From: a virus
Direction: 5' to 3' (one strand)
Virus record (IMG/VR): IMGVR_UViG_3300029319_000085
Location: 10,528 to 50,651 of that record
DNA length: 40,124 nucleotides
Part shown: piece after piece, positions 18,850 through 39,938 of the stretch
Numbering within the stretch: position 1 is the stretch's first letter
Layout of the letters: every line of letters begins with the position of its first letter
Notes under the pieces: model-generated
The model's input: only the letters and a program-made list of their open reading frames with translations
Databases searched by the model: none
What the model was told of the DNA's origin: nothing
Program-made: the position numbers and the translations under genes

Positions 18850-18858
18850 TATAAGTAG
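18850..18858 (-). promoter_or_regulatory. CTAYTTAYW element before the neck/tail genes
   Basis: The minus strand reads CTACTTATA, 39 bases upstream of the gp13-like start and just downstream of the capsid-gene terminator. This placement is what would be expected of a promoter that restarts transcription for the neck and tail genes. The context AGTAAAACTACTTATA closely matches the copy at 33111. Confidence 0.45.
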
Positions 18859-18872
18859 TTTTACTTACCATA

Positions 18873-18936: not shown

Positions 18937-20709
18937 TTAGCCATTAAGATCGTAACAAACAACTAGACCGTAGTAGTCAGGACGCACCATTTTCTTGGCA
19001 TAGCGAGTCATGACACCCTTACGGGGCACGAAATCTTCTGTACCAAAAATGGTCGGCGTGACTTGCAGCGGAACATAAGGAGCATACACATAGCCACTTT
19101 CAAGGAAGCTATTACCCTTACGTCCAACAAGAATCACGTTGCGCAGGAAGTACGGATCAACGTAGATGTCCATCTTGCGGCTCAATGAACCGACATTGAC
19201 GGCACCCCACGAACCCTGATCATCCTCAGGCGTGACGCTTGCCTTGAATCCAGCGGTGAACTCAAGAAGGCTGGCCACTTCCGGCGAGCAAACGATGAAG
19301 TTTGCGCCACCACGAAGGGTCTTACGGTGCATACGAGCGCTGAGATCATTAATGGTCTCAAGCAAGGTCTCGTACCACTCACTCACGGTACCCGTAAAGG
19401 TCGGAGCCAAGCTGTTCGAGATATCTGCACCAGTTTCACGATCAAGGAACTTACCAGGGCGACGGCTCCAGTAAAGCTTACCGGCCGTTGCACCAGCGAC
19501 AAGATCCGAAAGGATCTCTTGATCGATTTCAAGAGCGATCTGCTCGGAAAGGATGCTTGTCAACTCAACTTCAGCGTCGAGGTTGTGATAAGCATTCAAG
19601 TCCTGAGCAAGCTCGGGGCTCCATTTAGCCTTGAGCTTCTTGGTGACTGCGGTGACAGCGGTGCTGTCCACCTTGATGTCGATCTCTGGGATCTGCTGAT
19701 TTCCTTCAAGTCCCCAGCCTTGGTTACCATTAGCACCCTTAAGGGCACCGAAAGGATCACCTGCGGCGACAAATTCGTCCGTGATCGGGAAGAACACCTT
19801 ACCGACCTCAGCAGCACCACCAGCGGTGGTTGCGTCACCTGCGAACGAGTGCGAGAGAGCAACAGCGGACTGTCCACCCAAACGGCTAACACCGACGAGG
19901 AGGACCTTATCTCTTGAGCTTCCTGAGAACTGGTTCAAGCGACGAGCATGATAACCAGTGCCTGCGGCAGCATTAGCAGCAAGATCACCAGCACCGTTAA
20001 CACCCGAGACGACAAGAGCCGAAAGGTTGTCAAGGTTCATACCATCAGCATTGGTGACACTAATTTCACCAATAACGTAAGTCGAAGTACCCGAAATAAG
20101 ATCAGGGTCACGACGAAGGGTCTTAACATCATCAGACGACTCGTTCGCACCGAACGTACCCGACGAGATAATGGTAATACCTGTGATCGAGCCTGTTGGG
20201 CTCGAATATCCGTTGCCGAGGTTATAAAACGTGCTTTCGCCAGCTTGATCGACAAGGTTTGCACCACTCATAATTTGGTTAGCGACACGGCCTTGACCGT
20301 AAATCGAGTCACCACCAGTGCGTCCGAGGCGGTGGACACTACCACTACCATCAACAGCACCCATAGCGCTATCAGGACTATACACGAAGTCCATGAAGAA
20401 GATGAGTCCACTTGGGAGGCTCATCGGTTGCACGGAAACGAGGTCCTGTGCTAACAACCCACCGAATACACGGCGTACAATTGGGAATGCAACGGAAGCA
20501 AATCCTTCGACATCACCAGCGTTCATGGTGGTTTGCTCTTTGAGAAGTTGAGCAGCTTGGTTTTCTAGAAGACGAGCCATATTCGAGCGACCGTTGTCGT
20601 CGAGACCCTCCAGAAGACCAGTCTTGGCCCACTTATCAAGTAGAGCTTCACCTTCATGGGCGAGCGAACGTCGTTTGATTCCTTCAGTCAAAGTATCAAT
20701 TACAGACAT
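18937..20709 (-). CDS. 23: Major capsid protein, T4 gp23-like
   Basis: The main shell protein. FASVAFPIVRRVFGGLLAQD (residues 70-89) followed by LVSVQPMSLPSGLIFFMDFV corresponds to the T4 gp23 region around its VQPMNSPTGQVFALRAVY. The C-terminal SGYVYAPYVPLQVTP and RKGVMTRYAKKMVRPDYYGL blocks are also typical of this HK97-fold family. At 590 aa it is slightly longer than gp23 (521). T4 gp23 is trimmed at Glu65; here (L/I)xE sites occur at LLE (47-49) and LKE (56-58), fitting cleavage by the protease at 24226. Codon use looks more GC-rich and regular than in neighbours, as expected for high expression. A strong AAGGAG site precedes the ATG. Confidence 0.96.
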   Translation of the reverse strand: MSVIDTLTEGIKRRSLAHEGEALLDKWAKTGLLEGLDDNGRSNMARLLENQAAQLLKEQTTMNAGDVEGFASVAFPIVRRVFGGLLAQDLVSVQPMSLPSGLIFFMDFVYSPDSAMGAVDGSGSVHRLGRTGGDSIYGQGRVANQIMSGANLVDQAGESTFYNLGNGYSSPTGSITGITIISSGTFGANESSDDVKTLRRDPDLISGTSTYVIGEISVTNADGMNLDNLSALVVSGVNGAGDLAANAAAGTGYHARRLNQFSGSSRDKVLLVGVSRLGGQSAVALSHSFAGDATTAGGAAEVGKVFFPITDEFVAAGDPFGALKGANGNQGWGLEGNQQIPEIDIKVDSTAVTAVTKKLKAKWSPELAQDLNAYHNLDAEVELTSILSEQIALEIDQEILSDLVAGATAGKLYWSRRPGKFLDRETGADISNSLAPTFTGTVSEWYETLLETINDLSARMHRKTLRGGANFIVCSPEVASLLEFTAGFKASVTPEDDQGSWGAVNVGSLSRKMDIYVDPYFLRNVILVGRKGNSFLESGYVYAPYVPLQVTPTIFGTEDFVPRKGVMTRYAKKMVRPDYYGLVVCYDLNG

Positions 20710-21783: not shown

Positions 21784-21792
21784 AATAAATAG
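21784..21792 (-). promoter_or_regulatory. CTAYTTAYW element before scaffold and capsid genes
   Basis: The minus strand reads CTATTTATT, 32 bases upstream of the scaffold ATG, preceded by GTTTGTCATAA. The copy before the sheath gene has nearly the same preceding bases (GTTTGTCTTA), making these two the most alike of the set. Confidence 0.45.
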
Positions 21793-21832
21793 TTATGACA
21801 AACACAAATAGGCCTTTTTTCTATGTGTAATA

Positions 21833-25772: not shown

Positions 25773-26589
25773 CAGACTCGTACTCTCTTACTAGGCTTTG
25801 AAGTTTTAGAACCTTTTTAAGTTCTTTTTCAGAAATATTTGTGACGTCAAAAGAGTCAACCCTCTCCAAAACAATATTAGTATTAGTCAGCATCTCGGCG
25901 TCAGCTTGGACCTCTGGGAGCTTAAGAGATTCTTGCACCTTGTTCTTGATTCGAGTCAATTCCTCAACCAAGTAGAGTTGAAAGTCTGCATAGTTATCAC
26001 CAAGAGACACGATATACTTGTTTAACAAGTCACGCTGCTCCGGTAGTAGCTCCTTATATTTGCTATTATATTTATTCACAAAACTGTTGACAACCAAATT
26101 ATCCACAGGTGCTAATTTTGATTCTTTCAACTTGGTCTTAGAAGATAAAGACTCTAAGACTTCGGCTTCAAGTATAACACGCTTTTTTAGCGAGGTTCCA
26201 AGACTAAAAATTTGATTGACTGTCGCAAAGCTTTTATAATTTGGAACAAAGTTTGAAAACACAGACGTACCAAGCTCTTTATTAATATCTTTAATCAGTT
26301 GGCTTTGTTTTTCAAATATCTTACTTTTAGAAATCTTGTCGTGTTCGGCCCTTGCGTGAAATATCATTTTCTCTGCCGTATATTTGTCTAGCTCTTTTGT
26401 TTCGAGCAGTGCCTTATAGCATTTCAATTCTCTGTTTAGAACTGAGCCGTTTGAAAAATGTTCTTTTATAATGGAAATAACTTTGTTTTTTCTCTGCGTA
26501 TCATTAGAGACGATAGCTTTTGTTGCCTCCCTTATAAGAGCCTCAAAAACAAAAGCAGTGTTTCTTTTCTTGTTGTGTTTAGTTCTCAT
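25756..26589 (-). CDS. Hypothetical head-module protein, 277 aa
   Basis: A Lys/Glu-rich, almost wholly helical protein starting MRTKHNKKRNTAFVFEALIR, with no cysteines beyond one and no membrane segment. I recall similar proteins after the portal gene in other marine phages, but no function is known to me. It overlaps the portal gene by 11 bases and the 183-aa gene by 17, so the three are translationally coupled. A prohead core or portal-associated assembly role is a reasonable guess from position and composition only. The start is ATG. Confidence 0.7.
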   Translation of the reverse strand: MRTKHNKKRNTAFVFEALIREATKAIVSNDTQRKNKVISIIKEHFSNGSVLNRELKCYKALLETKELDKYTAEKMIFHARAEHDKISKSKIFEKQSQLIKDINKELGTSVFSNFVPNYKSFATVNQIFSLGTSLKKRVILEAEVLESLSSKTKLKESKLAPVDNLVVNSFVNKYNSKYKELLPEQRDLLNKYIVSLGDNYADFQLYLVEELTRIKNKVQESLKLPEVQADAEMLTNTNIVLERVDSFDVTNISEKELKKVLKLQSLVREYESDDTED

Positions 26590-28486
26590 AGTTCTTTTCC
26601 AAACCCTCTATTAAACGAAGCACATCGTTGTTAGCCTCTTTAAGTAGGCTCTCTTCACGATCAAGTGCCTCTCCAACTGTCCCCCGTGAAAGAGGTCTCA
26701 TTTCGCCAGCCCACCCTTTATATAGGTTTCTGTCTGAGCTAGAGGCCACGCTTTCTCCCGTGCTAGACAAATAACTTCGTAGTCTTGCTCCTGCTTGACG
26801 ACCATCTATCTTAACTTGTTCGTAGCCATTATCGCTTCTTTGCCCTGGTTCTGCCAAAAGCGGTCCCTCTTCGGCTGGCTCTTCTGCTGCGGGTTCGTCT
26901 CCTCCAGCCTCGTCTCCACCAAGGTCACCACCAAGGTCTTCACCGCCAAGGTCACCTCCTGCTTCATCAGCACCAGCGTCGGTGCCAACAGCAGCGGTCA
27001 TAGCCTCACCGGCCGCTGTTCCAACTGACTCAATTGAGGCTGTATGTTTAGAATCTCCAAATTGTTCAAACATAATTCGCTCCACCTCATCATCATCAAG
27101 TTTGAAGACGTTCTTATAGATCCACCTTTTGGAGAAATATCCCTCAGTCGCCGCACCAGCGATCTCAAACTTAGTTCTAAAATGCTCAAGCTCTTGTAGT
27201 TCAGCGATTTTAGAGGGGTTGTTTAAGGTTAGTTTAAAATTAGTCAGGTCACTGTTTCGGTACCCAAGCGTGAAAAGGTGAATGATGCACAATTTTTCCA
27301 ATTCAGCCAACACTACTCGCTGAAGCCTCTGAATAGTTCTGGCAAATCTAATATCTTTCTGTGCTAAAGTTGTTTTATCTTCCATCGCATCAGACTGGGC
27401 CAAATAAGCTTTCGGAACTTTAAGTGCTGAGAAAAGCTTATCTCTAAGGTAATTGACGTCATCAATATCACCTGTAAAAGAGCCGCCAGCCAAAGTTTCG
27501 ATACGAGAGGATTGACCTGCTCGAACCGGAATATAATAATCTTCGTCAATACTCATAGCGTTGTACCTAAGATCAACTCTACCAGTATCAGCGTCAACAA
27601 TCTGGTTTCTCTTCATCTGGGTCTTAACTTGTTCAATGTACATCTCAACATCTTCGGCAGGAATATTTCCAACATCAATGTAAAAAACTCGACGCTCTGG
27701 TGACCTGACAATCCTGTAAGCCATCATTGCATCTTCCAACAAAGTTAGTTGCCGCCATATTCTTCGTGATGGTTCAAGCACAGACGTTCCGTATGGAACG
27801 TACTTATCATTGCCAAGAACTCGGAAATGTGCTATCTGCCAGTTCTCAAATGTAACACCCGGCTGAGAATCGCCAGACCAATAATATTGGACATAATTTG
27901 GGTTTGTGGGGTCTTTCCCCTCCAGTCTCTCCACTTCACGAACTGGCAGAGGGATGACATTGGTGACCCCAAGTCCATCATCAATGTCAAGGTACAAGTA
28001 ATAATCGCCAAATTTACACATGCTCCTGGCCCAGCCAAAAAGATTTGACTCAACGTTTAGAACCGTGTATAATAAAGTGTGTATAATCTCTTTAATCTCT
28101 CTATTATGGCACTCAATATGGACCAAGGGATTTATCTCGGACGATGTAGTGATCTCATCGGCATAAACATCGAGAGCAGACGCTATTTCTGGCATATACT
28201 CCATCTGATCGAAATCAGTGTACCTAAGTTGCTTGTCTCTGTTTAAGAGAACCTTACTTTGTAGTCCAGAAAATGGATTGTAGTATTCTTTCTTTTTAAA
28301 CTCTTTGCCGTTTGCTGTGGTGAACTTATACTTTGTCACAGTTCGAGCAGTTGTTCTTGTAACGGTGGGTTGATTATAGTCCACCAATGGTCCACTAAAC
28401 AATCTGGTCAACCTCTTGAATAGAGTTGATTGCTGATTGCGAGGATTGTTTTGATCACTTTTGTGTTGGTTACTGTTGTCTGCCAT
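26579..28486 (-). CDS. 20: Portal vertex protein, T4 gp20-like
   Basis: Forms the dodecameric portal through which DNA is packaged. Core segments typical of gp20 are present: DQMEYMPEIASALDVYADEI (residues 93-112), FRVLGNDKYVPYGTSVLEPS (about 225-244), RRIWRQLTLLEDAMMAYRIV then RSPERRVFYIDVGNIPAEDV (about 245-285), and DKLFSALKVPKAYLAQSD (about 352-369). The length, 635 aa, exceeds T4 gp20 (524); the extra part includes an Asp/Glu/Gly/Ala-rich linker at about residues 497-545. The gene lies two bases after terminase and upstream of the protease, as in T4 (17-20-21 order with insertions). The start is ATG. Confidence 0.94.
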   Translation of the reverse strand: MADNSNQHKSDQNNPRNQQSTLFKRLTRLFSGPLVDYNQPTVTRTTARTVTKYKFTTANGKEFKKKEYYNPFSGLQSKVLLNRDKQLRYTDFDQMEYMPEIASALDVYADEITTSSEINPLVHIECHNREIKEIIHTLLYTVLNVESNLFGWARSMCKFGDYYLYLDIDDGLGVTNVIPLPVREVERLEGKDPTNPNYVQYYWSGDSQPGVTFENWQIAHFRVLGNDKYVPYGTSVLEPSRRIWRQLTLLEDAMMAYRIVRSPERRVFYIDVGNIPAEDVEMYIEQVKTQMKRNQIVDADTGRVDLRYNAMSIDEDYYIPVRAGQSSRIETLAGGSFTGDIDDVNYLRDKLFSALKVPKAYLAQSDAMEDKTTLAQKDIRFARTIQRLQRVVLAELEKLCIIHLFTLGYRNSDLTNFKLTLNNPSKIAELQELEHFRTKFEIAGAATEGYFSKRWIYKNVFKLDDDEVERIMFEQFGDSKHTASIESVGTAAGEAMTAAVGTDAGADEAGGDLGGEDLGGDLGGDEAGGDEPAAEEPAEEGPLLAEPGQRSDNGYEQVKIDGRQAGARLRSYLSSTGESVASSSDRNLYKGWAGEMRPLSRGTVGEALDREESLLKEANNDVLRLIEGLEKNYEN

Positions 28487-28488
28487 TT

Positions 28489-30069
28489 TTATCCCTTAAT
28501 AATCCAAGATAGGTCATATCTTTTTCCATCATTACCTTCAAAACTACTCTGTGGGCCTTTTCTAGGCTTATAACCCTGCATTCCGGGTATCTTAGTATCA
28601 AAAGTGCTGTTGCTAATAGATATACCACCTATCATCGCTTTTTTATAATCCATTTCCCTCTTATTAACCGTTAACGCTGTATCTCTAACCCAACATCCGA
28701 TACTGGTCGCTATGACTAGATCGTCGTTGTACCCCCTCATAGCCTGCGGTCTCCCATTGTGCCAAACAAAAGTTTTAATTTCGCTAGCCAGGCGTTTGGA
28801 GTTAATATTAATTAGTTTGTTTCTAACGAATTCTTCAAACTTAGCAATCACTAACGGCCTAGTTTTCATAGACATCGTAAACCCAGCCACACCACCGACC
28901 GCTTCAGCCGTTGCCTGGTCAACATATTCATGTGTAGCTCGAATGCTATAATATATGTTAGAGTAGTCAAGTTCTTCAAGCCTACTTAACACACCAATAC
29001 CCAAGGAATTGTTCTCAATCACCAAAAGAGCCTGGTTATATTCTGTAGCCATACTAAAAAGCAACGGAGCAAACATATCTGGGGTTATTTTTCCTTGGTA
29101 CTCGGCCACCTGATTCATAGTTTGAATGTCTATTATTTGACACACGCTGTAGTCTGACCCATCACCCCTAGCAACGTCAGCAATCGCTAAATAATCTCTT
29201 CCATCCTGGGGTGTCTCCCATATCCAATAATTTCTATCGAAACCAGTTTTTCTCTCTGGGTCGGATACGTTTTCTAAAATTCTATTTAGATCATCACCAT
29301 GAACCACAGTCTCACCGGAAGCGTTAAAATTACACTCAAGCTCTTGAGCGATTTCACGCTTGGACATATTCCTAGTTTCTTTTTGAAACCAAGCTGCGTC
29401 TCGTTCTGGGTGTACATCCCAAGGTAGCTTAATCGGGTTGAAATCATTTTTACCTAGCTCGGCTTCAGTATAGTTTTTATGAAACCAATTTCCAACACCA
29501 TACGGGGTGCTCAGCGCTATACAGGTGCCACCAGTCGAAAGTGTAGGATACAAACCAGCCCACATTTCTTCAAGTCCCTCAACAATGGCCGCCTCATCAA
29601 TAACCAAAAGAGATAACGCTTCAGAACGACCAGCGTCGCCAGACGTGGACGAGGCTTTAACTTGGGAACCGTTCGTTAACTCGAAAGAGTTTCTATTATC
29701 AATAGCGATTGCCGCAATTTTCAGCCACGCTGGTAAATTTTTATATATGGCTTTTGATTTTTTAACTAAGTTAGCTGCCGTGTTTAGTTTAGTAGCAACA
29801 ACTAATATGTTCTTGTCCCGATGAAACAACATAAGCCAAGCGACATAAGAGGCAACCGTGGTTGAAATGCCCAACTGTCGTGCTTTCAATATAATATTAA
29901 AACGATGCTTCTTAAAATCCTTCAGGGCATTTTCCTGAAAGTTATACATATCAAAAGGTATCAACCCATGCATTGGATGGGATATTTTTGCGTACTTGTT
30001 AGAAAAGTAGACAGGATCTTTGCCACAGCGGACAATCTCTGCCATCATCTCTTTTCTTGAGAGGCTCAT
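28489..30069 (-). CDS. terL: Terminase large subunit, T4 gp17-like
   Basis: ATP-driven DNA packaging motor and nuclease. The ATPase domain has a gp17-type Walker A, KARQLGIST (62-70), Walker B LLVIDEAA with the catalytic Glu at 159 (154-161), and coupling motif LSTP (186-189). The C-terminal RNase H-like nuclease domain has AIADVARGDGSDYSV with Asp298 (295-309), VIENNSLGIG with Glu352 (350-359) and a final acidic pair in GYNDDLVIA. The length, 526 aa, is slightly below T4 gp17 (610). It follows an unknown small gene and precedes the portal gene. The start is ATG. Confidence 0.95.
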   Translation of the reverse strand: MSLSRKEMMAEIVRCGKDPVYFSNKYAKISHPMHGLIPFDMYNFQENALKDFKKHRFNIILKARQLGISTTVASYVAWLMLFHRDKNILVVATKLNTAANLVKKSKAIYKNLPAWLKIAAIAIDNRNSFELTNGSQVKASSTSGDAGRSEALSLLVIDEAAIVEGLEEMWAGLYPTLSTGGTCIALSTPYGVGNWFHKNYTEAELGKNDFNPIKLPWDVHPERDAAWFQKETRNMSKREIAQELECNFNASGETVVHGDDLNRILENVSDPERKTGFDRNYWIWETPQDGRDYLAIADVARGDGSDYSVCQIIDIQTMNQVAEYQGKITPDMFAPLLFSMATEYNQALLVIENNSLGIGVLSRLEELDYSNIYYSIRATHEYVDQATAEAVGGVAGFTMSMKTRPLVIAKFEEFVRNKLININSKRLASEIKTFVWHNGRPQAMRGYNDDLVIATSIGCWVRDTALTVNKREMDYKKAMIGGISISNSTFDTKIPGMQGYKPRKGPQSSFEGNDGKRYDLSWIIKG

Positions 30070-30609
30070 TTATGCCTCTGGCGTATCTGGATTTTTTGGT
30101 GCCTTGTCGTTACTTGGTCGCTTGTCAGAGAAAAGATCTAAGAATTTCTTAATCCCATCATCAACGGTATCTTTTGAAGGTTGCTTTATATTTTCAACAC
30201 CCTCAACGCCGCCAATCTTGTACCTCTTGACGGCCTGAACAAAGTTTCTAACTCTAGATGTGCTTTGTACCATGATGTCGGCATCATCCACCTCATTAAG
30301 AGTGACTGCTGACTTCATAACCTTACGATATTCTTTCTTAAGGTACTTAACAATGTCGCCAAACTTTCTTTCGATCTCATTCTCGAATTGACCTCGGGGG
30401 TGTACTTCTTTCATAAGAACTTCACTATGGTAAGTAATAATTAATTGGTCTGCGGAAAAGCGAACCTTAAAACCGTCCATTACACGACTATCTAGAATAG
30501 GGTGTCCCTCTTCTCTTTTTAGTCCTATTTTTTCATCCATATTATACCCATCATAGGCATTGGAAGCTGCTTGACTCAAACCCTTTATCACGTCTAAAAT
30601 TGTAGCCAT
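30070..30609 (-). CDS. Conserved protein directly upstream of terL, 179 aa
   Basis: The sequence begins MATILDVIKGLSQAASNAYD and continues with KIGLKREEGHPILDSRVMDG, a pattern I recall from uncharacterised proteins of several marine phages. The middle is beta-rich (FKVRFSADQLIITYHSE) and the rest helical, with a Pro/Lys-rich tail. It ends one base before terL. A small terminase subunit is possible from position, but I see no helix-turn-helix and do not claim it. A TTG five codons upstream also opens the frame; I prefer the ATG at 30609 because the recognisable start of the family is MATILDVI. Confidence 0.7.
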   Translation of the reverse strand: MATILDVIKGLSQAASNAYDGYNMDEKIGLKREEGHPILDSRVMDGFKVRFSADQLIITYHSEVLMKEVHPRGQFENEIERKFGDIVKYLKKEYRKVMKSAVTLNEVDDADIMVQSTSRVRNFVQAVKRYKIGGVEGVENIKQPSKDTVDDGIKKFLDLFSDKRPSNDKAPKNPDTPEA

Positions 30610-31067
30610 GTTTTTATTCTCCAAATTAGTTTGTTAAAGTAAGCTCTGAAAAAACGACCCATTCTTTTGAACAGTGGTGGCTTCCAATCCTCATCGCCAG
30701 GTCGCCAACCAGATTTCCAACGCTCCTCTCTAAATTCCACATAGTCAATATAGCACTGCTGACAGCACTTAAACCTATTCATATATAGGTCGTCCCTAGA
30801 TGAAAATGAATAAGTTTTACAAACAGGGCATGAGCGTTGACTAGTTGATGGTTTTCTCTTTGTTTTTATCTCTATGTCGCCAACTGTGTGAGTCTTTTTT
30901 CTTTTGTACTTCTTGAGTAGTTTTTTTCTTCTCTCTCCTAGTTGACTTAGGTAAGCGCTCTCCTTGTCTGGCTCCCATCCAGATCGGAAGTCTTGAACCG
31001 TATCTTTACCATATTTTTCAGCGATGGCCTTCTCGACTGCTGCAATATAGTTGTAGTCTTTATTCAT
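30594..31067 (-). CDS. Zinc-ribbon protein, 157 aa
   Basis: Four to five cysteines form a probable zinc site: SCPVCKTY (Cys80, Cys83) and KCCQQCYIDY (Cys101, Cys102, Cys105). Before it is a long Lys/Arg-rich stretch (about residues 46-73). The last 30 residues are basic and aromatic (FKRMGRFFRAYFNKLIWRIK), an amphipathic helix that may bind nucleic acid or membrane. The function is not recognised. It overlaps the signal-peptide protein before it by four bases (ATGA) and the 179-aa gene after it by 16. Confidence 0.7.
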   Translation of the reverse strand: MNKDYNYIAAVEKAIAEKYGKDTVQDFRSGWEPDKESAYLSQLGERRKKLLKKYKRKKTHTVGDIEIKTKRKPSTSQRSCPVCKTYSFSSRDDLYMNRFKCCQQCYIDYVEFREERWKSGWRPGDEDWKPPLFKRMGRFFRAYFNKLIWRIKTWLQF

Positions 31068-31444
31068 CTTTGGTAAACTGCGTGTACAATCCCGACCGAA
31101 ACTCCGGTTCCGATCAGCAAACCAGTGAGAAGTCCGAAAGTTCCCCGATTTCTGTTAAACCAAGAATTATTCTTTTTCAGTTGTCCCTCCAGTTGAGAGA
31201 TATAGTGTTTATATCCTAACTGTATTTGGTCACATACTTTTTTATCTACTGAGCATTCTGCTAGTTTGGCGTTGGTGTCAATTTTCTTTTCCAGTATTTT
31301 GCGAAAATCTTCTTCGCTCAACAGAATTCCAACATATGTGCTGCCCTCTTGCTCAACAGCCGCTGGGCGAGGCTCGAACTTCGTGACCTCTGCCGCAGCG
31401 GCGTTAAGCGAAAAGAGCAGTATAAGTGCAACTACTTTTTTCAT
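31064..31444 (-). CDS. Exported protein with C-terminal membrane anchor (lysis candidate)
   Basis: A clear signal peptide (MKKVVALILLFSLNAAAAE, residues 1-19) is followed by a periplasmic helical part with two cysteines (Cys64, Cys71 in ECSVDKKVC) and a C-terminal hydrophobic segment (GLLTGLLIGTGVSVGIVHAV, about 104-123). There is no lipobox, so it is not a typical outer-membrane spanin. Proteins with an N-terminal signal and C-terminal anchor occur near phage lysis genes, and a holin-like and a spanin-like gene lie just upstream. A role in lysis or the host envelope is inferred. It starts one base after the tubulin-like gene. Confidence 0.7.
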   Translation of the reverse strand: MKKVVALILLFSLNAAAAEVTKFEPRPAAVEQEGSTYVGILLSEEDFRKILEKKIDTNAKLAECSVDKKVCDQIQLGYKHYISQLEGQLKKNNSWFNRNRGTFGLLTGLLIGTGVSVGIVHAVYQR

Positions 31445-31445
31445 A

Positions 31446-32579
31446 TTACTTCAGGAACTTCTTCAGTCCCTCGATTCGTTTAGCTGGTCGCTTCAGTCCA
31501 CTCACCAGGGTATAAGTAACAAGTTTATCTCTGTTTGAATCCTCATAAATACCACGGTGAATAATTGCTCCACCTGTTAGTGCGGCCAAAGTATCGAAAC
31601 CAAACTCAATGCTATCCATCAGACCAACGGTCTCCTCGAAGATTGTTTCGCCGCCGACAACAATACAAGCAGCACCTGTAGCAGTTGTCAAGTCAAAACC
31701 CTCAGCAAGAAGTGTTTTTTCTAAGTTCTTCTTAAGAGCAGTCGAGATAGCAGTTTCACTATCAACGTCTTTAACACTTGTAACGCCCATAATCATACAA
31801 CCAGATTGTTTCATAATACTATCGTAGTCAGTAGCGTCAAAGGTTGTATACTCTGAGTCTTGATTCGCCAGAACGTTGAAGACGTGGAACAGGCCAGCGA
31901 CTGTGTTGTTAATTGTAGTCCAGAACTTCTTGACTGTGAGTTTGGGGTACAATCTTTTAATCTTCTCGTTGTCCACCATAATCAGTGGGGCAATCTTTCC
32001 TTTTTCTGCGAGCCCGCAAAGTTGGTTAATGCGAGTGTGAGCGTTCTTGGCCACCGTTGGGGAAGCCGACTCACCGGCAGTTGGAAGGGAAGCAATCACA
32101 CCAACACGCTCGTCAACGTTCTCAACGCCGATGTAGGTGAAATACTTTTTGGCGACCTTAATAAGGGTATTAACTGTACCACCGCCTGAGCCACCAGATA
32201 CACCAAGACAGATCAAAATGCGATCAACGTTGCTGCCAAATACTTCACGGAACTTATTAAAGACCTCTTGTTCCTTACGTTCAATGGCTGCCTCGGCCTT
32301 AGCTTGATCTTTGCCCGCACCTTGCTCACCGTGTTCGTCAACCAAAAACTTTTGACTATCAGGTAAATCTAGTCCATTTAGATCTGAACGAGCCGTATTA
32401 ACTGCTACAGTTTTTGTATAGCCCATATCATAAAAAGCCTTTGCCATTCGTCCGCCACCTTGACCGGCACCGACAATAGCATAAGTTAGAGCGCCGCCGG
32501 ACTTATCCTCAACGGACTCTTCTTCTTCGTTTAAATCAGGATCATAGTCCTCAATGTCAAGTGTAGGAATATCTACCAT
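31446..32579 (-). CDS. Tubulin/FtsZ-family GTPase, phage-encoded
   Basis: Tubulin-family GTPases polymerise into filaments that position or move cargo; phage PhuZ centres the phage nucleus. The family's landmarks appear in order: glycine-rich N-terminal loop IVGAGQGGGRMAKAF (35-49), AVNTARSDLNGL (59-70), the tubulin signature LGVSGGSGGGTVNTL (125-139), and a T7-like acidic loop TFDATDYDSIMKQSG (246-260) that would complete the GTPase site of the next subunit. The length is 377 aa, similar to FtsZ. The first 28 residues are very acidic and may be a flexible tail. The C terminus is basic (LKRPAKRIEGLKKFLK). The gene sits inside a cluster of membrane and lysis-like genes rather than replication genes. 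An AGGAG site precedes the ATG. Confidence 0.85.
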   Translation of the reverse strand: MVDIPTLDIEDYDPDLNEEEESVEDKSGGALTYAIVGAGQGGGRMAKAFYDMGYTKTVAVNTARSDLNGLDLPDSQKFLVDEHGEQGAGKDQAKAEAAIERKEQEVFNKFREVFGSNVDRILICLGVSGGSGGGTVNTLIKVAKKYFTYIGVENVDERVGVIASLPTAGESASPTVAKNAHTRINQLCGLAEKGKIAPLIMVDNEKIKRLYPKLTVKKFWTTINNTVAGLFHVFNVLANQDSEYTTFDATDYDSIMKQSGCMIMGVTSVKDVDSETAISTALKKNLEKTLLAEGFDLTTATGAACIVVGGETIFEETVGLMDSIEFGFDTLAALTGGAIIHRGIYEDSNRDKLVTYTLVSGLKRPAKRIEGLKKFLK

Positions 32580-32590: not shown

Positions 32591-32905
32591 TTAGATGTCT
32601 AATTCCTTGTGAAGTCTAACCAAAGCTTTCAATCGTTCCTCTCGGTCATCTATTTTTTTAGTATCTTCTAGACGACTTTTAAAGACTACCTTGATCGCTC
32701 CAATCTTATCTTTTTCAAGTCTACCACGCAACTCTGCTTCCTTTAAGGCCACAGTTGCTTCTGTTTTTATTATTTCCAAATATTCTAATTTATCGTCTGC
32801 TGGCTTCAGCAAGCGATAAAAGTAAATGAGTAAGCTTGCTAAAACAACAAACCCTAATACAAGCTTCCACCAGCTTGATTTAAACCAGTACCATACTCGT
32901 TTCAT
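32591..32905 (-). CDS. Membrane-anchored coiled-coil protein, spanin-like
   Basis: One N-terminal transmembrane segment (WKLVLGFVVLASLLIYFYRL, about residues 13-32) is followed by about 70 residues of charged helix with coiled-coil character. This is the architecture of inner-membrane spanins (Rz-type), which join inner and outer membranes at the end of lysis. It overlaps the holin-like gene by four bases. No matching outer-membrane lipoprotein was found in the window. A spanin role is inferred from architecture and neighbour only. Confidence 0.6.
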   Translation of the reverse strand: MKRVWYWFKSSWWKLVLGFVVLASLLIYFYRLLKPADDKLEYLEIIKTEATVALKEAELRGRLEKDKIGAIKVVFKSRLEDTKKIDDREERLKALVRLHKELDI

Positions 32906-33093
32906 TTCCCGTGTTTCCAGGTTGCTGCGATATCAGCAGCACCTTGTAATCCAATGTAAGCTAAAGACACAGCGACCCAATCACTACTAGTAACGGAACC
33001 AACCGCAAGAAAAACCGTTGAAGTTCCCCACACTATTAATTTTCGTGAAGCCCATTTGCCTAGCCATTTATCTATCTTTTGTTGCATATCCAC
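32902..33093 (-). CDS. Holin-like small membrane protein, 63 aa
   Basis: Two hydrophobic segments, about residues 18-33 (KLIVWGTSTVFLAVGSV) and 38-53 (WVAVSLAYIGLQGAADI), are separated by a short turn (TSSD) and flanked by charged ends. The size and layout fit a small phage holin, and the TSSDWVAVSLAYIGLQ pattern resembles other short phage holins. Holins open the inner membrane to start lysis. The start is either GTG at 33093 or ATG two codons later; an AGGAGG site precedes both. A CTACTTATA element lies 17 bases upstream of the GTG. No endolysin is seen nearby. Confidence 0.62.
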   Translation of the reverse strand: MDMQQKIDKWLGKWASRKLIVWGTSTVFLAVGSVTSSDWVAVSLAYIGLQGAADIAATWKHGK

Positions 33094-33110: not shown

Positions 33111-33119
33111 TATAAGTAG
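33111..33119 (-). promoter_or_regulatory. CTAYTTAYW element before the holin-like gene
   Basis: The minus strand reads CTACTTATA in the context AGTAAACTACTTATATC, very close to the copy before the gp13-like gene. It lies 17 bases upstream of the holin-like start and would place the lysis-like and tubulin-like genes, and perhaps the head genes beyond, under the same promoter class. Confidence 0.45.
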
Positions 33120-33135
33120 TTTACTTTATAATAAG

Positions 33136-33399
33136 TTACATCTTTTGTATCTTCATCTGAAGAACACGCTTAATCTCTTTCGGGTCTAACTTATCACTCA
33201 TCATGCTGAGAAAAACGTCTAGCATCTCTAGAGCCTCAACTCTTCTATCAACTTTGGCCAAAAGCCTTCTAAGCTGTGGAAGTGTGTCTAGCTTCTTTTT
33301 AGCTGTAGCGACGTCAGAGGTAACTTTTTCCTCTTCTTGTAAAAGGTTGTCTACCTCTTCTTTAATAACTTTTTGCAAATATTCTTTAGTAATCTTCAT
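33136..33399 (-). CDS. Small helical protein with capsid-targeting-like N terminus, 87 aa
   Basis: The protein starts MKITKEYLQKVIKEEVDNLL, an amphipathic helix followed by LQE at residues 20-22. This matches the N-terminal design of the proteins at 22559, 33404 and 39531. The rest is helical and charged, without cysteine or membrane segment. A longer frame exists from a TTG upstream, but it overlaps the preceding gene and the shared MKITK start favours the ATG at 33399. Function is unknown; an internal head protein is suggested by the N terminus. Confidence 0.65.
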   Translation of the reverse strand: MKITKEYLQKVIKEEVDNLLQEEEKVTSDVATAKKKLDTLPQLRRLLAKVDRRVEALEMLDVFLSMMSDKLDPKEIKRVLQMKIQKM

Positions 33400-33403
33400 T
33401 TTG

Positions 33404-34240
33404 TTATTTATCCTTTGGTAAAATGGCAAATGGTGCTTGTGGTTTGTTCCAGTCAACTTCGCCCCTTGATAGTGCTTTAGCAGTCATTTTATCAGCACCA
33501 GGGACTTTATCTGGGTCAATAACTGGCATGTCAACTCTATCTGGGGCTCCTTGTGGGACCACAAATTTTACAGCGCCTAAGTGTTTAGTAAATTTTTTCA
33601 CAGCGGCTTCGATAGCGGCGTTCCCTTCCTCTCCAGTAAACTTTTTAAGGGCTTCAATAACTTCTTCTGGTTTAAAGAACTTGTTACCCTTTTGCGCCAG
33701 GTTTGTCAACTCTTGTCTAATTGGGCCTTCTTTGAACTGATCGAACCCACCGGTACCCTCTTTGCCTTTAGTGATCCCCAACTTACCAACGGTGATGGCA
33801 TTAAGGATTCTGATTAGGTCTGTACCTGGAAAATCTACAGCATATCCTCCAACTTTAGCGCTGGGGTTTACCATAGTTGTGGCGACCCATCTGTGATGTC
33901 CGTCCATGATGTGACGGTCATTACTAATGAAAGCGCCGAGGTCGCCGCCGGTCTTCATCTTTCCTAAGATCATAGACAAGGCCATTCCCATCGCTTTTCC
34001 AATATTCATACTTTTTTGGGATGGTTTCAGGTCCGAAACTTTATACATTGAATTTGGTTTAACTTTGATGACATCATCCAATTCGTCTTCGTCACTAAGT
34101 CCCTTGGTCACATCCTGTTTTGCATCGTCAGGGTTTTGAGCCACCTGAGAAAGCTTTAACGGAAACTGCTTTGGATCTATGTCTTGTTCTTTGATGACTT
34201 TTTTAACAGCTTCAATTAAGATTGTTTTTTTTATTTTCAA
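33404..34240 (-). CDS. ParB/sulfiredoxin-fold protein with capsid-targeting-like N terminus
   Basis: Residues 108-121, DRHIMDGHHRWVAT, carry the ParB/Srx-fold signature (DGHHRWxA). It is preceded by VSDLKPSQKSMNIGKAMGMA (68-87), which fits the first part of such domains. ParB-fold proteins act as nucleotide-dependent DNA-binding proteins or nucleases. The N terminus MKIKKTILIEAVKKVIKEQD has an IKE site at 16-18 and resembles the targeting-like helices of three other proteins here. The C terminus is Pro/Lys-rich. The start is TTG with GGAGA eight bases upstream; the match of MKIKK to the shared motif supports it. A CTATTTATT element lies 24 bases before the start. Confidence 0.72.
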   Translation of the reverse strand: MKIKKTILIEAVKKVIKEQDIDPKQFPLKLSQVAQNPDDAKQDVTKGLSDEDELDDVIKVKPNSMYKVSDLKPSQKSMNIGKAMGMALSMILGKMKTGGDLGAFISNDRHIMDGHHRWVATTMVNPSAKVGGYAVDFPGTDLIRILNAITVGKLGITKGKEGTGGFDQFKEGPIRQELTNLAQKGNKFFKPEEVIEALKKFTGEEGNAAIEAAVKKFTKHLGAVKFVVPQGAPDRVDMPVIDPDKVPGADKMTAKALSRGEVDWNKPQAPFAILPKDK

Positions 34241-34264
34241 CTTTAAGGTCTCCAGGGCCGATAC

Positions 34265-34273
34265 AATAAATAG
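34265..34273 (-). promoter_or_regulatory. CTAYTTAYW element before the ParB-fold gene
   Basis: The minus strand reads CTATTTATT, 24 bases upstream of the TTG start of the ParB-fold gene and just after the stop of the 68-aa gene. Confidence 0.42.
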
Positions 34274-34278
34274 TGAGC

Positions 34279-34485
34279 TTAAGACGATTTAGCACGTTTA
34301 TGTATCTGGGTGAGACTAGCCCTTACTCGAATTTCTCTCCCCTCATAAATAATAGTTGCTATTTTTTCCCAGGTATTGTATTGTTTAAGTAGGCCAACCC
34401 TCCACTCAGAGTAAACAGTTGGGCGATGAAGACCAACACCGTGTTCTAAAATTTCTCTAAATCTAACAAGATCACCTGCTCTCAT
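34279..34485 (-). CDS. Hypothetical small beta-rich protein, 68 aa
   Basis: A short protein with MRAGDLVRFREILEHG at the start, WRVGLLKQYNTWEKIATIIY in the middle and a basic C terminus. The alternating strands and the GDLVRF opening suggest an SH3-like barrel, as in other short phage proteins I recall with the same layout. Function unknown. It overlaps the DUF523 gene before it by 14 bases. Confidence 0.6.
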   Translation of the reverse strand: MRAGDLVRFREILEHGVGLHRPTVYSEWRVGLLKQYNTWEKIATIIYEGREIRVRASLTQIHKRAKSS

Positions 34486-34939
34486 ATCTTTGTATCCTTT
34501 CCAGAAAAATCTGGCGGTTACTTTCCGTGTTCATAGAACTAATCTCTGTGCTAGGACAGTCAACGGCCTGGTGCATCGGAGCCTTAATAGTCTTACCGTA
34601 GTCCTTGACGCCAGTTGAAAGACCGCAGGTTGGCGAGCGGCTAATACCAATAAAACCTACAACGTCACTATGGAGTTCGGCGATTTCCTGACTCTTCTCT
34701 CGGAGTTCTGAATATACTTCTTTCTTGCCCGCAAATGCCTTGACTTCGCCATCAACCGCTCGCAATCTAATGGTGGAGCGGGGCGTCCCAAAGAGTTCGT
34801 GTTCTGGGCAGATAGGTACGAGTTCATAGCCGTGTTCGGCTGCCCAGTCATGAATGTGTTGATGTCGGCGGTTACTACCATTCCACCTTACATCGTTTCC
34901 ATACACACAAGAACTGATCAGGATCTTAGGGGATTGCAT
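34472..34939 (-). CDS. DUF523/TudS-like iron-sulfur protein
   Basis: The family landmarks are all visible: ILISSCVYGNDVRWNG (residues 6-21), LVPICPEHELFGTPRS (40-55) and IGISRSPTCGLSTG (97-110). The three conserved cysteines are Cys11, Cys44 and Cys105, which in characterised family members bind a 4Fe-4S cluster. One such member, TudS, removes sulfur from 2-thiouracil. The length of 155 aa is normal for the family. In a phage it might act on thiolated bases from degraded host tRNA or protect against sulfur-modified nucleotides; this is inference. It overlaps both neighbours by 14 bases. The start is ATG. Confidence 0.83.
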   Translation of the reverse strand: MQSPKILISSCVYGNDVRWNGSNRRHQHIHDWAAEHGYELVPICPEHELFGTPRSTIRLRAVDGEVKAFAGKKEVYSELREKSQEIAELHSDVVGFIGISRSPTCGLSTGVKDYGKTIKAPMHQAVDCPSTEISSMNTESNRQIFLERIQRYESR

Positions 34940-35240
34940 CTACACCAACTCCCCAGCCTGCCCGAATCATTAATAACATCATAGTTGAACCAAACACCAT
35001 TCCAAGTGAGGCGATACCACAAAGTTTCAACCGCACACCTAAGTCCTTATGGTCTATAAAGAATAGAACGCCTGGTAAATTAATAAATGGAAGTGCTGCG
35101 CCCAGGAAGGCCTGTAATATAATCCAGTCGTGAACAATAGCATATGAATACCAGTTAGCCCAAAAGTCTGAGACGAACGTCAAGACAAAAACTGTCTTGT
35201 ACATATTGTTGTTCATCCACTGCCAAAGGCTACTTATCAT
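34926..35240 (-). CDS. Small integral membrane protein, 104 aa
   Basis: Three hydrophobic segments are visible: about residues 14-34 (YKTVFVLTFVSDFWANWYSY), 40-61 (WIILQAFLGAALPFINLPGV) and 72-92 (LCGIASLGMVFGSTMMLLMI). The loop between the last two holds the charged DHKDLGVRLK. The family is not recognised and no catalytic motif is seen. It overlaps the methyltransferase gene by four bases and the DUF523 gene by 14, so the three are coupled in translation. Its function may relate to the host envelope. Confidence 0.65.
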   Translation of the reverse strand: MISSLWQWMNNNMYKTVFVLTFVSDFWANWYSYAIVHDWIILQAFLGAALPFINLPGVLFFIDHKDLGVRLKLCGIASLGMVFGSTMMLLMIRAGWGVGVDAIP

Positions 35241-36343
35241 CGTAGATCTTTTTTTATTTCTTCGATGTCTAGCCCTTCTACCCAGTCACCTACCTCAATT
35301 CTATAAGAACCACCTCGGTCTCTTGGGCTAGGAAAATATTTAAACCACTTTGACCCTGCAATGGCCTTTAAAGTCTCCATTCCAGGCTTTATCTGATAAA
35401 CGAGTTGCCGATCATTAGATATCTGGACCACAACGTCAGAAAATGGATGGTTCTTGGTGTGTATACTATATTCGTCACCCCTAAGGCCATCAAGCATCAT
35501 TTGTTTCTTGAAATTTTCTATAAAAACAATTTTTCTTTTTTCCTCTTTATCTAAGAGGTCAGGGCGCACCACGACATATTTTAGCAAAAACTCTAAGATA
35601 GCACCGAATGCACCCGACCAGTGGTGAGACTCTAAATTAAATGTGTCACCAGCAATATAACCACCTTTTTTTACCTTTGGAAGCCAGTATATAAATTCTT
35701 TCTTGGCGTCACTGTAATCCAAAGCCCAATCAGAAAATACACAATCAAAATAATGATCCTTAAACTTTTCCGCAGCAGAGGTTGAATAATCTTGGACTAT
35801 TTTAACCCTCTCATCGCCTGAAAACATCTTAGTGACTTTTTCTCTGTTTTCTTTCGACTGAGGCCAAAGCGCAACAATGTCCTCCGACAAATCCCAGGGG
35901 TCAATAAGATATAGTCTCGATGGGTTAACAATGGGAAGAATGTAATTACGAGCGGTACCCCCCTCGTCAATACCAACTTCTGTCATAACAGAACAAGAGG
36001 GAAGTGACCTAAATAACTCTCTGTCACCTTTCGGTTGATTTTCTGATATAATTCCAGATTTTATTAACTTTTCGCTATATCTTCCACCCTTAGTGTGATC
36101 CCAAGAAGAAAAGTACCTCAACGAATCTTGGTAACGAGGGTAATACAAGTTTTGAGGGTGTTTTACTAGTAGTGCATCTCTAACGCCCTCTATCAAAGAA
36201 ATATATAAAGTTCTATAACATATGCCTGGTAGATCACACACATTATCTTCACCTGCGGTTTTAGGAAGACCCTCCTCCGAGCCCAACTCCACATCAATAG
36301 TTATTATCTGTCTATCAAATACATTATTGTGATACAAAAGCAT
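35237..36343 (-). CDS. Class I SAM-dependent methyltransferase-like protein
   Basis: Rossmann-type methyltransferase motifs are recognisable (numbered from the ATG): MTEVGIDEGGTARNYIL with the glycine-rich SAM loop (about 120-136), LYLIDPWD with the acidic end of strand 2 (144-151), YFDCVFSDWALDYSDAKKEF (198-217) and VKKGGYIAGDTFN (224-236). This order resembles the Methyltransf_24 type, often involved in glycan or small-molecule methylation. The N-terminal 110 residues and the C-terminal 100 are not recognised. The target is unknown. I chose the ATG at 36343 (AGGAAGG site) over a TTG eight codons upstream. It overlaps the SbcDC stop by 20 bases. Confidence 0.7.
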   Translation of the reverse strand: MLLYHNNVFDRQIITIDVELGSEEGLPKTAGEDNVCDLPGICYRTLYISLIEGVRDALLVKHPQNLYYPRYQDSLRYFSSWDHTKGGRYSEKLIKSGIISENQPKGDRELFRSLPSCSVMTEVGIDEGGTARNYILPIVNPSRLYLIDPWDLSEDIVALWPQSKENREKVTKMFSGDERVKIVQDYSTSAAEKFKDHYFDCVFSDWALDYSDAKKEFIYWLPKVKKGGYIAGDTFNLESHHWSGAFGAILEFLLKYVVVRPDLLDKEEKRKIVFIENFKKQMMLDGLRGDEYSIHTKNHPFSDVVVQISNDRQLVYQIKPGMETLKAIAGSKWFKYFPSPRDRGGSYRIEVGDWVEGLDIEEIKKDLR

Positions 36344-39300
36344 ATCCTTCCTGACGTTCAATGTCAATAGTCATATCGGCAATATCTTTGAGACTATCCA
36401 AGTGAGTAATCAAAAGCACAGTCTTGTAGTAGCCCTTAATCATTTCCATCACTCGCATGAAGCCCTCAAGGTTTTCGGCGTCCAGTGCTGTGCCCGGCTC
36501 ATCCATAATCATAATGTCTGATTTTGGTAGGGTTGAGACGTTGGTTAGGGCAATGCGAATGGCAATTGCTGCGAGCGTCTTCTCTGCTCCAGAAGCCATC
36601 TCTAAAGGTCGTGCTTCGTACTTTGGATGCTTGATGAAGATGTCTAGTTTATTCTTTTCTGCCTCAAAGAAAACACCAAAGTCGGTGACATTGGCCAGCA
36701 CCGTGCTGATTTCCTCATTGATGAGAGGGAGCATGCGTTTCACAACATCATAACTGATGCCATTAGGGTGGGTGCAGCGCATAAACAAATCGTAGGCAGC
36801 GTACTCAGTCCGTAGGTCTTCAAGTTCTTGTTGCTTCTCTTTAATGTTTGCAATCTGGGTTTCAATACCACCGTGTGATTTTACAAGGTCAAGTACCTTG
36901 GTTTCACAGATGGCAATGTCGCTTTCCATTTTGATGGACTTCTCTTTGAGGTCATCCTGTTCTTTGATGAGTTCCTCTCGGTTCTCAATTGCTTCCTTAT
37001 TGAGTTCATAAACCTCAATCTTGGTCTTGATGCTTGCCATCTCGTTGGTGAGGAGGTGAAGTTTATTTTTTATCTTCGCCAAAGATAGGTCAAGGTTGGT
37101 TGCCTCGGTAGAGAGGTCAGCGTATTCCTTGTCTCTGTCGTTGTAGAGTTTCCGCTCGGCCTCCAGTGTCTCTACATCCATACCTTCCAGTTTGGTTGTC
37201 AACTGGTTGTGACGACGACGAAGAACCATAAGACTTCGGCGGCAGTCATCCAGCAAAGATTTGGACTCATAGGCATCCTTGATAAATTTACAATGGGAGA
37301 ACTCGGCCCCACAAGGAACTTCTCCGAGAATACTAACCTTCTTCTCGTAGTTCTCTCTTTGAGTTTCCCGCAGATTTATATCTGCTTCTAAACTGGTAAG
37401 TTCTTTTTGGATGCCTTCGCACTCTGTAATCTTTTCTTTGAGTGCTGAAACGTCTGTTTTGTCTAACAGTCCTTTGAGGACTTTCGCTTGCTCCAAAACA
37501 TCTTTCTTTTGGTTTTTGGTTTGGGCTGCTTTGAGATTGTAGTCAGACTTTTCTTGCCCTGCTGCCGCAAGTCTTGTTGTCTCTTTTCCAATATTAATAA
37601 GTTCAACAGGGGCAGATGCGAAAAGTCCATCGATTTCTTTTATCCTCTCGGAAATGGTTTCTAACTGTGTAGTTAGTTTAGCACATTTTCTTTCTTGCTT
37701 TTCTCTATCTTTTTCATTATCGGTCAATTGTCCGACGAGTTGCGTAACATCTTCATCAAAAGTATTATCTTCCAACTTTTTCAGGAGGGCACGGGTTTCA
37801 ATACTATCGTTCTTGGATAGTTTGAACTTCTTCTCAAACTGGTCAAGGTCCAAGAACTTGGCTAGGATTTCCTTACGCTTGGTTGAGCCCTCGTTGATGA
37901 AAGTCATCGCACCCATCTGACTGGACATACTGGTCAAAAGGAAGTCGTCAATGCTACCAAAGATTTTGCGGATGGCTTTATCTGTGCCGTTGCGGTCCAG
38001 CGAGTTGAGGCTAGTTTCTTCATCAGTGGCTGGGTCCACCACCGTGAACTCTACATCGGTCTTGGCCTCTTCGGTTTCTTCTCCATGAAGTTTACGAGTG
38101 TACTTCTCGGACTTCCGCTCAATGATGTAGGTTTTGCCCGCAACATCAATCTCAACTCGTCCGCAGCCAGATGGCTTGTTCTGGTTGATTATGTTTAGGT
38201 TCTTGCGGTTGTTCTTGCTGATTGAGTTATATACCGTGTAGAGCATACTGTCAACAACAGAACTCTTGCCTGAATAGTTTTTACCAAAGATGCCAACAAC
38301 GCCGTTGAGTTTCTCGAAGTTGATTGCGTTGCCTTCACCGTAATTGAAGAGGTTATCAAACTCCATACTCTTCAGGGACCACTCAACATTTCGTAGTCCA
38401 GCCTCATCGCCGTTAACAAAACTGTCATACTTGGAGTTGAGTTGAAAAACTTTTTCTAGTGTTGCGGTGTCAGGTTCATATTCTTTTAGGTATTCCCGAA
38501 TAAGTCGCTCTTGGACTGCTTGGTCCCGCAGGTTTTCTGTGTTGCCAAGGTCATCAACATTTACGCTGTCCCGCTTGAGACCGGCCTTGTTGACAAACGA
38601 CAGGCTCTCCGGCTTAAAGCGGCTCTTCACAATATCCATCACACGGCGGATTTTGTCTAGCGAGACTTTGTGGTGTGTCACCACACGCAGTCGGGCACCC
38701 TCTGGGATATCCAGTTTGCGTGGGATGTTGCCCTTCGCTGTCATCTCAATCGTCATAAACGGTTTGACATTTTTGACGAGGTGGTGCTTGACATCGTAGT
38801 CAGTCTTGCTGTGGATGTCCCAAATCAAAAAGCCTTTATCGTTTGTCTCGCCGTGGTTTTGCTGGATGGTAGAACCACAATAGCGGATGGTCCCGCTCTC
38901 GTTGAGAACCTGATTGGTCTTGTGGATGTCACCCAACATAGCGTAGTCAAACTTGTCAAACACTGAGATGTCATGATCGCCGTGGTCCATCACCCAACCG
39001 AGGTCTGTTTGACTATTATTAATTGCTCCGTGATAAAGAGCGATGTTGATTGCATCAGGGTCCGACGGGTCTTCCCAATTGGTCTCGTCAAAGATTGACA
39101 AAACATTTAGGGTCAGGTCGTCTTCCAACTGAACCTCGCCTGAATACTTGTGTAGGATCAGGCTTGGGTGGTTGAGTGCTTCCACAATCGGAGTGATGGC
39201 ATCTTGGCGAGCAGCGTTCCGTAGGTTGCCGTCGTGGTTGCCGAGGATGATGTGAGTCTCGGCGATGTCGGCCAGATTCTTTAAGAAGTCTGTGGCTAGT

Positions 39301-39504: not shown

Positions 39505-39533
39505 ATTGTATCAGATGATGTTTAGGGTGTTTA
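39505..39533 (-). promoter_or_regulatory. Possible sigma70-type promoter before SbcDC
   Basis: On the minus strand TAAACA (39528-39533, four of six to TTGACA) is followed after 17 bases by TACAAT (39505-39510, five of six to TATAAT), 28 bases before the SbcDC start. The preceding sequence repeats CCTAAACA twice. It overlaps the end of the upstream gene. A host-type promoter would fit early or middle expression of this DNA-processing gene. Confidence 0.35.
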
Positions 39534-39938
39534 GGGTTTTATGGACCTACGGAGCATACGACCCGTAAGTTTATCAAAACGTGGCTTTGTATTAGCACGG
39601 CGGCTATTAACATATTTTTGTACGATTGGTTCCACAAGTATCTCTGTTGAGAAGTTTTTTGTCAGATCGTCTCTACCTATCTCGTCAAACATTTCTTCAA
39701 GATGTTTTCTTATGATATCTTCCGCCCGCAAAATCTCATCCATAGGGATGGCGGCACGTTCTTCCAGAGTTTCGCTTTCGGCATCACGATCTTCAGATTC
39801 TGCCTTGACACAGTTTCTATATGTTCTGCCAAACATCTTTTTTGTTTTACGAGTTGGGTGGGTCTTATAGCCCTTTTGGCAACGTTCGTCAAGTTGTTGC
39901 TTCACCATCTCACGGAGTTGAGCTTTGGTGATTTTCAT
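39531..39938 (-). CDS. Small basic/acidic protein with capsid-targeting-like N terminus, 135 aa
   Basis: The N terminus MKITKAQLREMVKQQLDERC forms an amphipathic helix with LDE at 16-18, matching the shared design at 22559, 33136 and 33404. It is followed by KGYKTHPTRKTKKMFGRTYR (about residues 22-41) and NCVKAES, a block I recall from many small proteins of marine phages. The rest is acidic helix and a basic tail. No enzymatic motif is visible. The ATG overlaps the end of the partial gene upstream by four bases. Confidence 0.68.
   Translation of the reverse strand: MKITKAQLREMVKQQLDERCQKGYKTHPTRKTKKMFGRTYRNCVKAESEDRDAESETLEERAAIPMDEILRAEDIIRKHLEEMFDEIGRDDLTKNFSTEILVEPIVQKYVNSRRANTKPRFDKLTGRMLRRSIKP

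Follow-up and report, generated by a model that had tools for sequence, protein, structure and literature searches.

Phages are known to encode tubulin-superfamily proteins of two types, TubZ and PhuZ, both of which act on phage DNA, and a TubZ has already been described in a phage that forms no nucleus, Clostridium phage c-st (PMC7950403). The initial annotation of the locus described here, which held known phage tubulins to be mainly the PhuZ proteins of nucleus-forming jumbo phages, missed the TubZ of c-st. Work on phage cytoskeletons has been confined almost entirely to nucleus-forming jumbo phages and one plasmid-like prophage. Beyond these, scattered database entries are annotated as such proteins, and tubulin/FtsZ protein clusters were listed, with no further analysis, for a hot-spring virome (PMC8597652). 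The window, that is, the whole stretch of 40,124 nucleotides of viral DNA analyzed here, contains a tubulin gene belonging to a large, coherent clade found mainly in T4-type phages; new here are the clade itself, its exceptional conservation, its probable late-gene setting, and its N-terminal motif. No study of it was found in the open-access literature.

Fold, GTPase loops, and kinship of the phage tubulin

The gene (Table 1) starts with ATG and is preceded, just 5′, by an AGGAG ribosome-binding site. Assignment of its product to the tubulin/FtsZ family of GTPases, as proposed by the initial annotation, was borne out by Pfam, by the AlphaFold2 model, and by Foldseek. In Pfam, the 377-aa protein matched Tubulin (8e-9) and TubZ-like_C (1e-7), both over the curated cut-offs; the latter, C-terminal domain (PF22453) was matched by 14 of 15 family members. 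The AlphaFold2 model, built from a 15-member alignment, has a pLDDT of 88 and a pTM of 0.88, with low confidence for residues 1–15, which resemble a disordered tail. It shows the two-domain tubulin fold, for which Foldseek returned 829 PDB matches at E ≤ 0.001, the top ones being TubZ. Bacillus TubZ ranked first (2xka, TM 0.77, E 6e-22), followed by CetZ and FtsZ.

Both hallmarks of the superfamily, the T1 glycine loop and a T4 loop of the GGGTG type, are present (Pfam Tubulin and alignment). When aligned with E. coli FtsZ, one archaeal FtsZ, seven plasmid TubZs, and four PhuZs, loops T1, T4, T6, and T7 matched those of E. coli FtsZ and plasmid TubZ column by column, so that the glycine loop, the GGSGGGT signature, and the acidic T7-like loop noted at the outset are indeed retained. 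Loops T1, T4, and T6 and the acids of T7 are conserved in 15 diverse members with identities down to 50%, D248 and D251 being invariant. The 377-aa protein therefore retains every GTPase loop and both acids of the T7 loop. Polymerization is the normal behavior of tubulin-superfamily members with intact T7 loops, and judging from residues and fold, it is strongly expected here as well.

The members of this clade, which we take to be marine in view of what is known about the sample series and the related phages, appear closest to TubZ. A sequence profile search of the PDB ranked TubZ/RepX first (E 2e-22), and profile–profile comparison gave E values of 1e-40 for plasmid TubZ, 3e-20 for FtsZ, 2e-20 for gp138 of Bacillus phage G, and 8e-5 for PhuZ. 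The plasmid TubZ profile set was picked by searching with this very tubulin, which favors TubZ in the latter comparison; this bias does not affect the rankings from the PDB and Foldseek. The TubZ references came from plasmids of other bacilli, with toxin and virulence plasmids and phage c-st left out. In a tree of 25 sequences, the phylogeny that the initial annotation had called for, the marine tubulins were clearly apart from every reference, with only modest support (66–84%) for the deep nodes. Among viral models, the best Foldseek match was a so far unstudied protein, annotated in an uncultured phage as “FtsZ Cell division GTPase”; PhuZ matches were weaker and ranked lower. The marine tubulin is thus TubZ-like by sequence and predicted structure and forms a clade of its own, with CetZ and FtsZ next and PhuZ only weakly related. 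The initial annotation, which compared the protein with PhuZ, missed that its nearest kin are plasmid TubZs.

With the TubZs of Bacillus plasmids and Clostridium phage c-st, the marine protein shares the fold, the TubZ-like_C domain, the T1, T4, T6, and T7 loops, and the best profile match, but identity is only ∼20%, the aligned TubZs lack an N-terminal motif of the IPxLxIED type (see below), and the long C-terminal tail of TubZ is missing. The setting differs as well, in that the marine protein is encoded by a lytic T4-type phage, in a late-gene setting, with no TubR or centromere repeats found. PhuZ of the phiKZ-like, nucleus-forming jumbo phages is also a phage-encoded tubulin-superfamily member and presumed intracellular organizer with an acidic T7 loop; however, its hhalign match (E 8e-5) covers the N-terminal part only, the Foldseek TM is ∼0.52–0.57, and the tails are different. 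The PHROG PhuZ family matched at E 0.11, which does not indicate a specific relationship. FtsZ and CetZ have the superfamily fold and GTPase loops in common with the marine tubulin but reach TM values of only 0.62–0.71; the NCBIfam FtsZ equivalog model scored 48 bits against a cut-off of 295, and the C-terminal linker and tail peptide of FtsZ are absent. Phage G gp138, annotated as “putative FtsZ-like cell division protein,” is homologous over the whole domain, but it is 21–24% identical, lacks the IPxLxIED N-terminus, carries a C-terminal extension, and lies among nucleotide and metabolic genes. The nearest predicted viral structure (A0A6J5RW92, uncultured Caudovirales phage, BFVD; TM 0.86, 28% identity) owes its name, “FtsZ Cell division GTPase,” to annotation only.

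FtsZ, TubZ, and PhuZ carry functional tails at the C terminus. With its 377 residues, the marine tubulin ends shortly past the domain; its final 16 residues carry a net charge of +6, in line with the basic C terminus noted initially. The N-terminal extension, correctly described as acidic in the initial annotation (net charge −11 over residues 1–27), contains a conserved motif that had been overlooked. All 15 aligned members have [IL]PxLx[IL]E near the start, with P5, L7, and E10 invariant and I4, I9, and D11 nearly so; the consensus is IPxLxIED, usually followed by Y or F, in a family otherwise 50–97% identical. The motif is followed by an acidic linker of variable length, with indels, and then by the GTPase domain. 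Among the ORFs of the window, of a 178-kb relative (G001), and of a 241-kb contig (G004), only two unrelated partial matches to it were found. Because a conserved, apparently disordered peptide next to a variable linker suggests a docking motif, we consider it reasonably likely that the peptide docks a partner.

A protein of this superfamily might also interfere with host division, that is, block, replace, or redirect the Z-ring so that the cell grows on or stays undivided. The DIPTL of the window protein bears a loose resemblance to DIPxFL, the peptide at the tail of bacterial FtsZ (DIPAFL in E. coli), and in a variant of this reading the DIP-containing N-terminal peptide would perhaps capture a host FtsZ adaptor. 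However, family members do not conserve the D of DIP, the core of the motif being P-x-L-x-I-E, and the tubulin is nearer to TubZ than to FtsZ in both Foldseek and profile–profile comparisons. Moreover, most members have TubZ-like_C instead of FtsZ_C, which makes copolymerization with host FtsZ unlikely. We thus regard a role in host division as unlikely, even though it is the strongest rival to the role proposed below, with partition, envelope or lysis, and virion roles less likely still. Organization of the envelope, the division machinery, or virion assembly had been the functions favored by the initial annotation.

Distribution and conservation of the clade

In IMG/VR, at least 110 contigs with relatives of the tubulin (50–97% identity) were found by pattern-seeded scans (91 at first, then 110), among them contigs of 172, 178, 190, and 241 kb. 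The initial assignment of the window to a T4-type phage, an uncultivated one, holds, given that the T4-type PHROG families for terminase, portal, prohead protease, and major head protein were matched. Six of seven tested contigs larger than 100 kb, like the window's own 50-kb contig, encode a major head protein of the T4 type, and most tubulin-bearing contigs tested contained a terminase large subunit (TerL) of the T4-type family. The nearest relatives of the TerL and capsid proteins of the window are those of Flavobacterium phage immuto, Microcystis phage Mel-JY01, Rhodothermus phage RM378, and two huge uncultured phages, none of which had a tubulin homologue at E < 0.01. The sole homologue among 50,697 phage records was phage G gp138 (21% identity). 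Two seed sets, run against 84,980 species in pattern-seeded scans that could miss distant kin, yielded no cellular relatives. The 241-kb contig (L152/G004; 65% GC, 24 tRNA-like genes, T4-type capsid gene, tubulin ∼51–52% identical) is a jumbo-size relative and probably has a different host. The tail sheath protein of the window (12995–16078, minus strand, 1,027 aa) has recognized sheath domains only at residues 740–1,019, preceded by a very long N-terminal extension.

Compared with the 178-kb relative, the tubulin is 94% identical (dN 0.036, dS ∼2, dN/dS 0.018) and the slowest evolving of 15 proteins compared (TerL 77%, portal 72%, capsid 63%, SbcCD 91%). Across close relatives, the tubulin has a median identity of 93%, compared with 77% in TerL, and against the 241-kb contig the tubulin ranks at the top of ten shared proteins. 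With respect to two other distant contigs (L212 and L232), TerL (55–57%) is conserved as well as the tubulin (51–54%). Conservation is thus exceptional inside the clade and against the 241-kb contig, not in every comparison. Recent horizontal transfer as the source of the high identity is ruled out by third codon positions being only 53% identical and by a dS of ∼2. Because identity is high despite such a dS, with a dN/dS of 0.018, also considering the distant relatives, the gene is old in the group, where purifying selection on it is very strong, and was not recently acquired. Such conservation despite differing gene surroundings would also fit a conserved host target, as in the reading of an action on host division.

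Gene surroundings and a late-promoter-like motif

On every close-relative contig that is long enough, the order is 63-aa hydrophobic protein, TM104, tubulin, TM126, 157-aa protein, 184-aa protein, TerL, and portal (Table 1).

Table 1. Features of the window around the tubulin gene and within its product
Feature	Position	Strand	Basis or occurrence
Major head protein, T4-type	18937..20709	−	PHROG match
Portal protein	26579..28486	−	PHROG match
TerL, T4-type terminase large subunit	28489..30069	−	PHROG/profile matches
184-aa protein directly ahead of TerL, small terminase by position only	30070..30624	−	Position
157-aa basic protein	30594..31067	−	78/78 close relatives
126-aa protein (TM126): N-terminal signal-like segment, C-terminal TM	31064..31444	−	79/79 close relatives
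TubZ-like tubulin/FtsZ-family GTPase, 377 aa	31446..32579	−	ORF, Pfam, profile searches, AlphaFold2, Foldseek
T7 (synergy) loop TFDATDYD (residues 246–253)	31821..31844	−	D248/D251 aligned with FtsZ D209/D212
T6 VDN (202–204)	31968..31976	−	Alignment with references
T4 tubulin signature GGSGGGT (129–135)	32175..32195	−	Alignments
T1 nucleotide loop GAGQGGGR (37–44)	32448..32471	−	Alignments
N-terminal motif IPTLDIEDYD (4–13)	32541..32570	−	Alignment; predicted disordered, pLDDT ∼45
104-aa protein (TM104): N-terminal TM, then charged, probably helical; spanin-like by eye only	32591..32905	−	68/68 close relatives
63-aa hydrophobic protein, holin-like by eye only	32902..33093	−	63/63 close relatives
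Late-promoter-like motif ACTACTTAT	33112..33120	−	19 nt 5′ of the 63-aa gene heading the run of the tubulin
Single-chain SbcD-SbcC (Mre11-Rad50) nuclease/ATPase, 1,050 aa	36324..39476	−	Upstream; 21/22 close relatives

The run is headed by a motif, RCTAYTTAT, that occurs seven times in the window (1.2 expected), with minus-strand sites before virion genes at 33112–33120, 34266–34274, 21785–21793, 18851–18859, and 16142–16150. Five of the seven sites lie in intergenic gaps, 19–64 nt before genes, and the genes behind the motif include those for the tail sheath, a head-tail adaptor-like protein, and the 63-aa protein; in the 178-kb relative, the same pattern was observed ahead of the corresponding genes. 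Of 53 distinct upstream regions, 50 had CTAHTTA at 17–19 nt before the first gene of the run, against 2% in shuffles. The T4-style late promoter, TATAAATA, occurred only at chance level, with RCTAYTTAT present instead; scans for sigma-70 promoters and terminators also gave chance levels. RCTAYTTAT is likely a late promoter of this phage group, different from TATAAATA of T4. Because this promoter-like motif heads the run and also precedes virion genes, the tubulin is probably expressed late, which would in turn be late for blocking host division. Gene order and motif together favor a role at the assembly or packaging stage.

The tubulin could accordingly be a virion or capsid-assembly component, or a nonpolymerizing GTPase scaffold for packaging, given that, among close relatives, TerL and portal belong to the same late gene run. 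Yet all catalytic residues of the polymer interface are kept, and an intact T7 loop normally means polymerization in the tubulin superfamily; furthermore, structural genes are not always near. In distant members, the neighbors are SbcCD, primase, and TerL (L212 and L232), PhoH and a ClpP-like protease (L179), DNA polymerase (L207), or sugar enzymes (L228). Thus, the function of the tubulin does not depend on any one neighbor, and its persistence amid differing genes indicates a role in trans. As members next to PhoH, DNA polymerase, or sugar genes are not beside TerL, a role specific to packaging is weakened, and we consider virion and scaffold functions quite improbable.

The initial annotation placed the gene among membrane and lysis-like genes, of which the membrane part stands, since both flanking genes encode a TM segment; lysis families matched none of the neighbors in family and profile searches. 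A filament or scaffold tethered by these TM proteins might remodel the membrane or time lysis, and the flanking of the tubulin by the 63-aa hydrophobic and the two TM proteins in all close relatives would suit such a function. The 63-aa protein, however, has no strong TM segment by hydropathy, no lysis family supports the idea, and for organization of the envelope nothing specific speaks beyond the TM neighbors. One contig with an 85% identical tubulin (L070) showed no recognizable match to TM104 or TM126 in an ORF comparison, and since the neighbors of distant members differ as well, partnership with the TM proteins is not obligatory. An envelope or lysis function therefore seems improbable.

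The SbcD-/SbcC-like protein farther upstream is ∼90% identical to that of the 178-kb relative, and relatives of it (1,044–1,048 aa) are also encoded near tubulin and TerL in L212 and L232. Between it and the 63-aa gene lies a variable stretch (33136–36367, minus strand), which contains a methyltransferase gene found in 0 of 26 close relatives, a gene with a 2-thiouracil desulfurase domain (18/34), and one for a 68-aa protein (43/44). The proteins encoded at 33136–33456, 33404–34240, and 39531–39938 (minus strand) share an N-terminal segment resembling MKITKxxLxxxIKEE, a repeated tag.

Partner systems and proposed role

Phmmer searches with chimallin (gp54) and subunits of the multisubunit RNA polymerase of phiKZ found none in the window, the 178-kb relative, or the 241-kb contig, with one chimallin query, which a divergent shell could escape; an RNA polymerase family search of eight, possibly incomplete, contigs was likewise empty. 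There is thus no sign of a phage nucleus at the sequence level, in agreement with the early impression that this gene set does not resemble that of nucleus-forming jumbo phages. The TubZ kinship raises the idea of a TubZRC-type partition motor that keeps the phage as a plasmid in pseudolysogeny, as in c-st and on Bacillus plasmids, TubZ being the closest known family. However, a profile of seven small genes directly upstream of plasmid tubZ detected no TubR-like protein in the window, the 178-kb relative, or the 241-kb contig; there was no tubC-like repeat array near the gene and no convincing iteron-like array in the 178-kb relative; and no integrase was found on these possibly incomplete contigs. 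In addition, the plasmid tubZ genes used for comparison follow a gene of ∼100 aa, whereas the tubulin gene has late virion genes as neighbors and is preceded by a promoter motif of the late type. With no sign of a partition system, such a motor is disfavored and very improbable.

The reading we prefer builds on the fold, the intact catalytic loops, the conservation, the motif, and the gene order, all established computationally: a late, GTP-driven filament of the TubZ type would position phage DNA or capsids, with the N-terminal peptide docking a partner. As a whole, we hold this mechanism to be about as probable as all else combined, and cargo positioning as such to be at or just under that level. 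In the late phase of infection, a lytic T4-type phage would produce a TubZ-branch tubulin that binds and hydrolyzes GTP and polymerizes head to tail into dynamic filaments. GTP would be held on the T1–T6 face, where the T7-loop aspartates of the next subunit would trigger hydrolysis. Inside the host, these filaments would then put phage DNA or assembling capsids in place, much as PhuZ or TubZ does, yet with neither a phage nucleus nor a TubR-tubC centromere. The N-terminal peptide, on its flexible acidic linker, would couple the filaments to a phage or host partner, and this docking tail would stand in for the C-terminal tails of FtsZ, TubZ, and PhuZ.

We therefore tentatively propose that the marine tubulins may constitute a third, widespread clade of phage tubulins, mainly of lytic T4-type phages, which would form organizing filaments without nucleus or centromere and dock to cargo by the N terminus, at the end opposite to that used by FtsZ, TubZ, and PhuZ. 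The hypothesis lends itself to direct testing, because the catalytic loops are intact and the conserved N-terminal peptide is short. From this clade, it would seem that nucleus-forming giant phages are not alone in building a cytoskeleton within the host. As the tubulin is the best-conserved protein in this part of the phage group, positioning of DNA or capsids by filaments may be needed by large lytic phages more generally.
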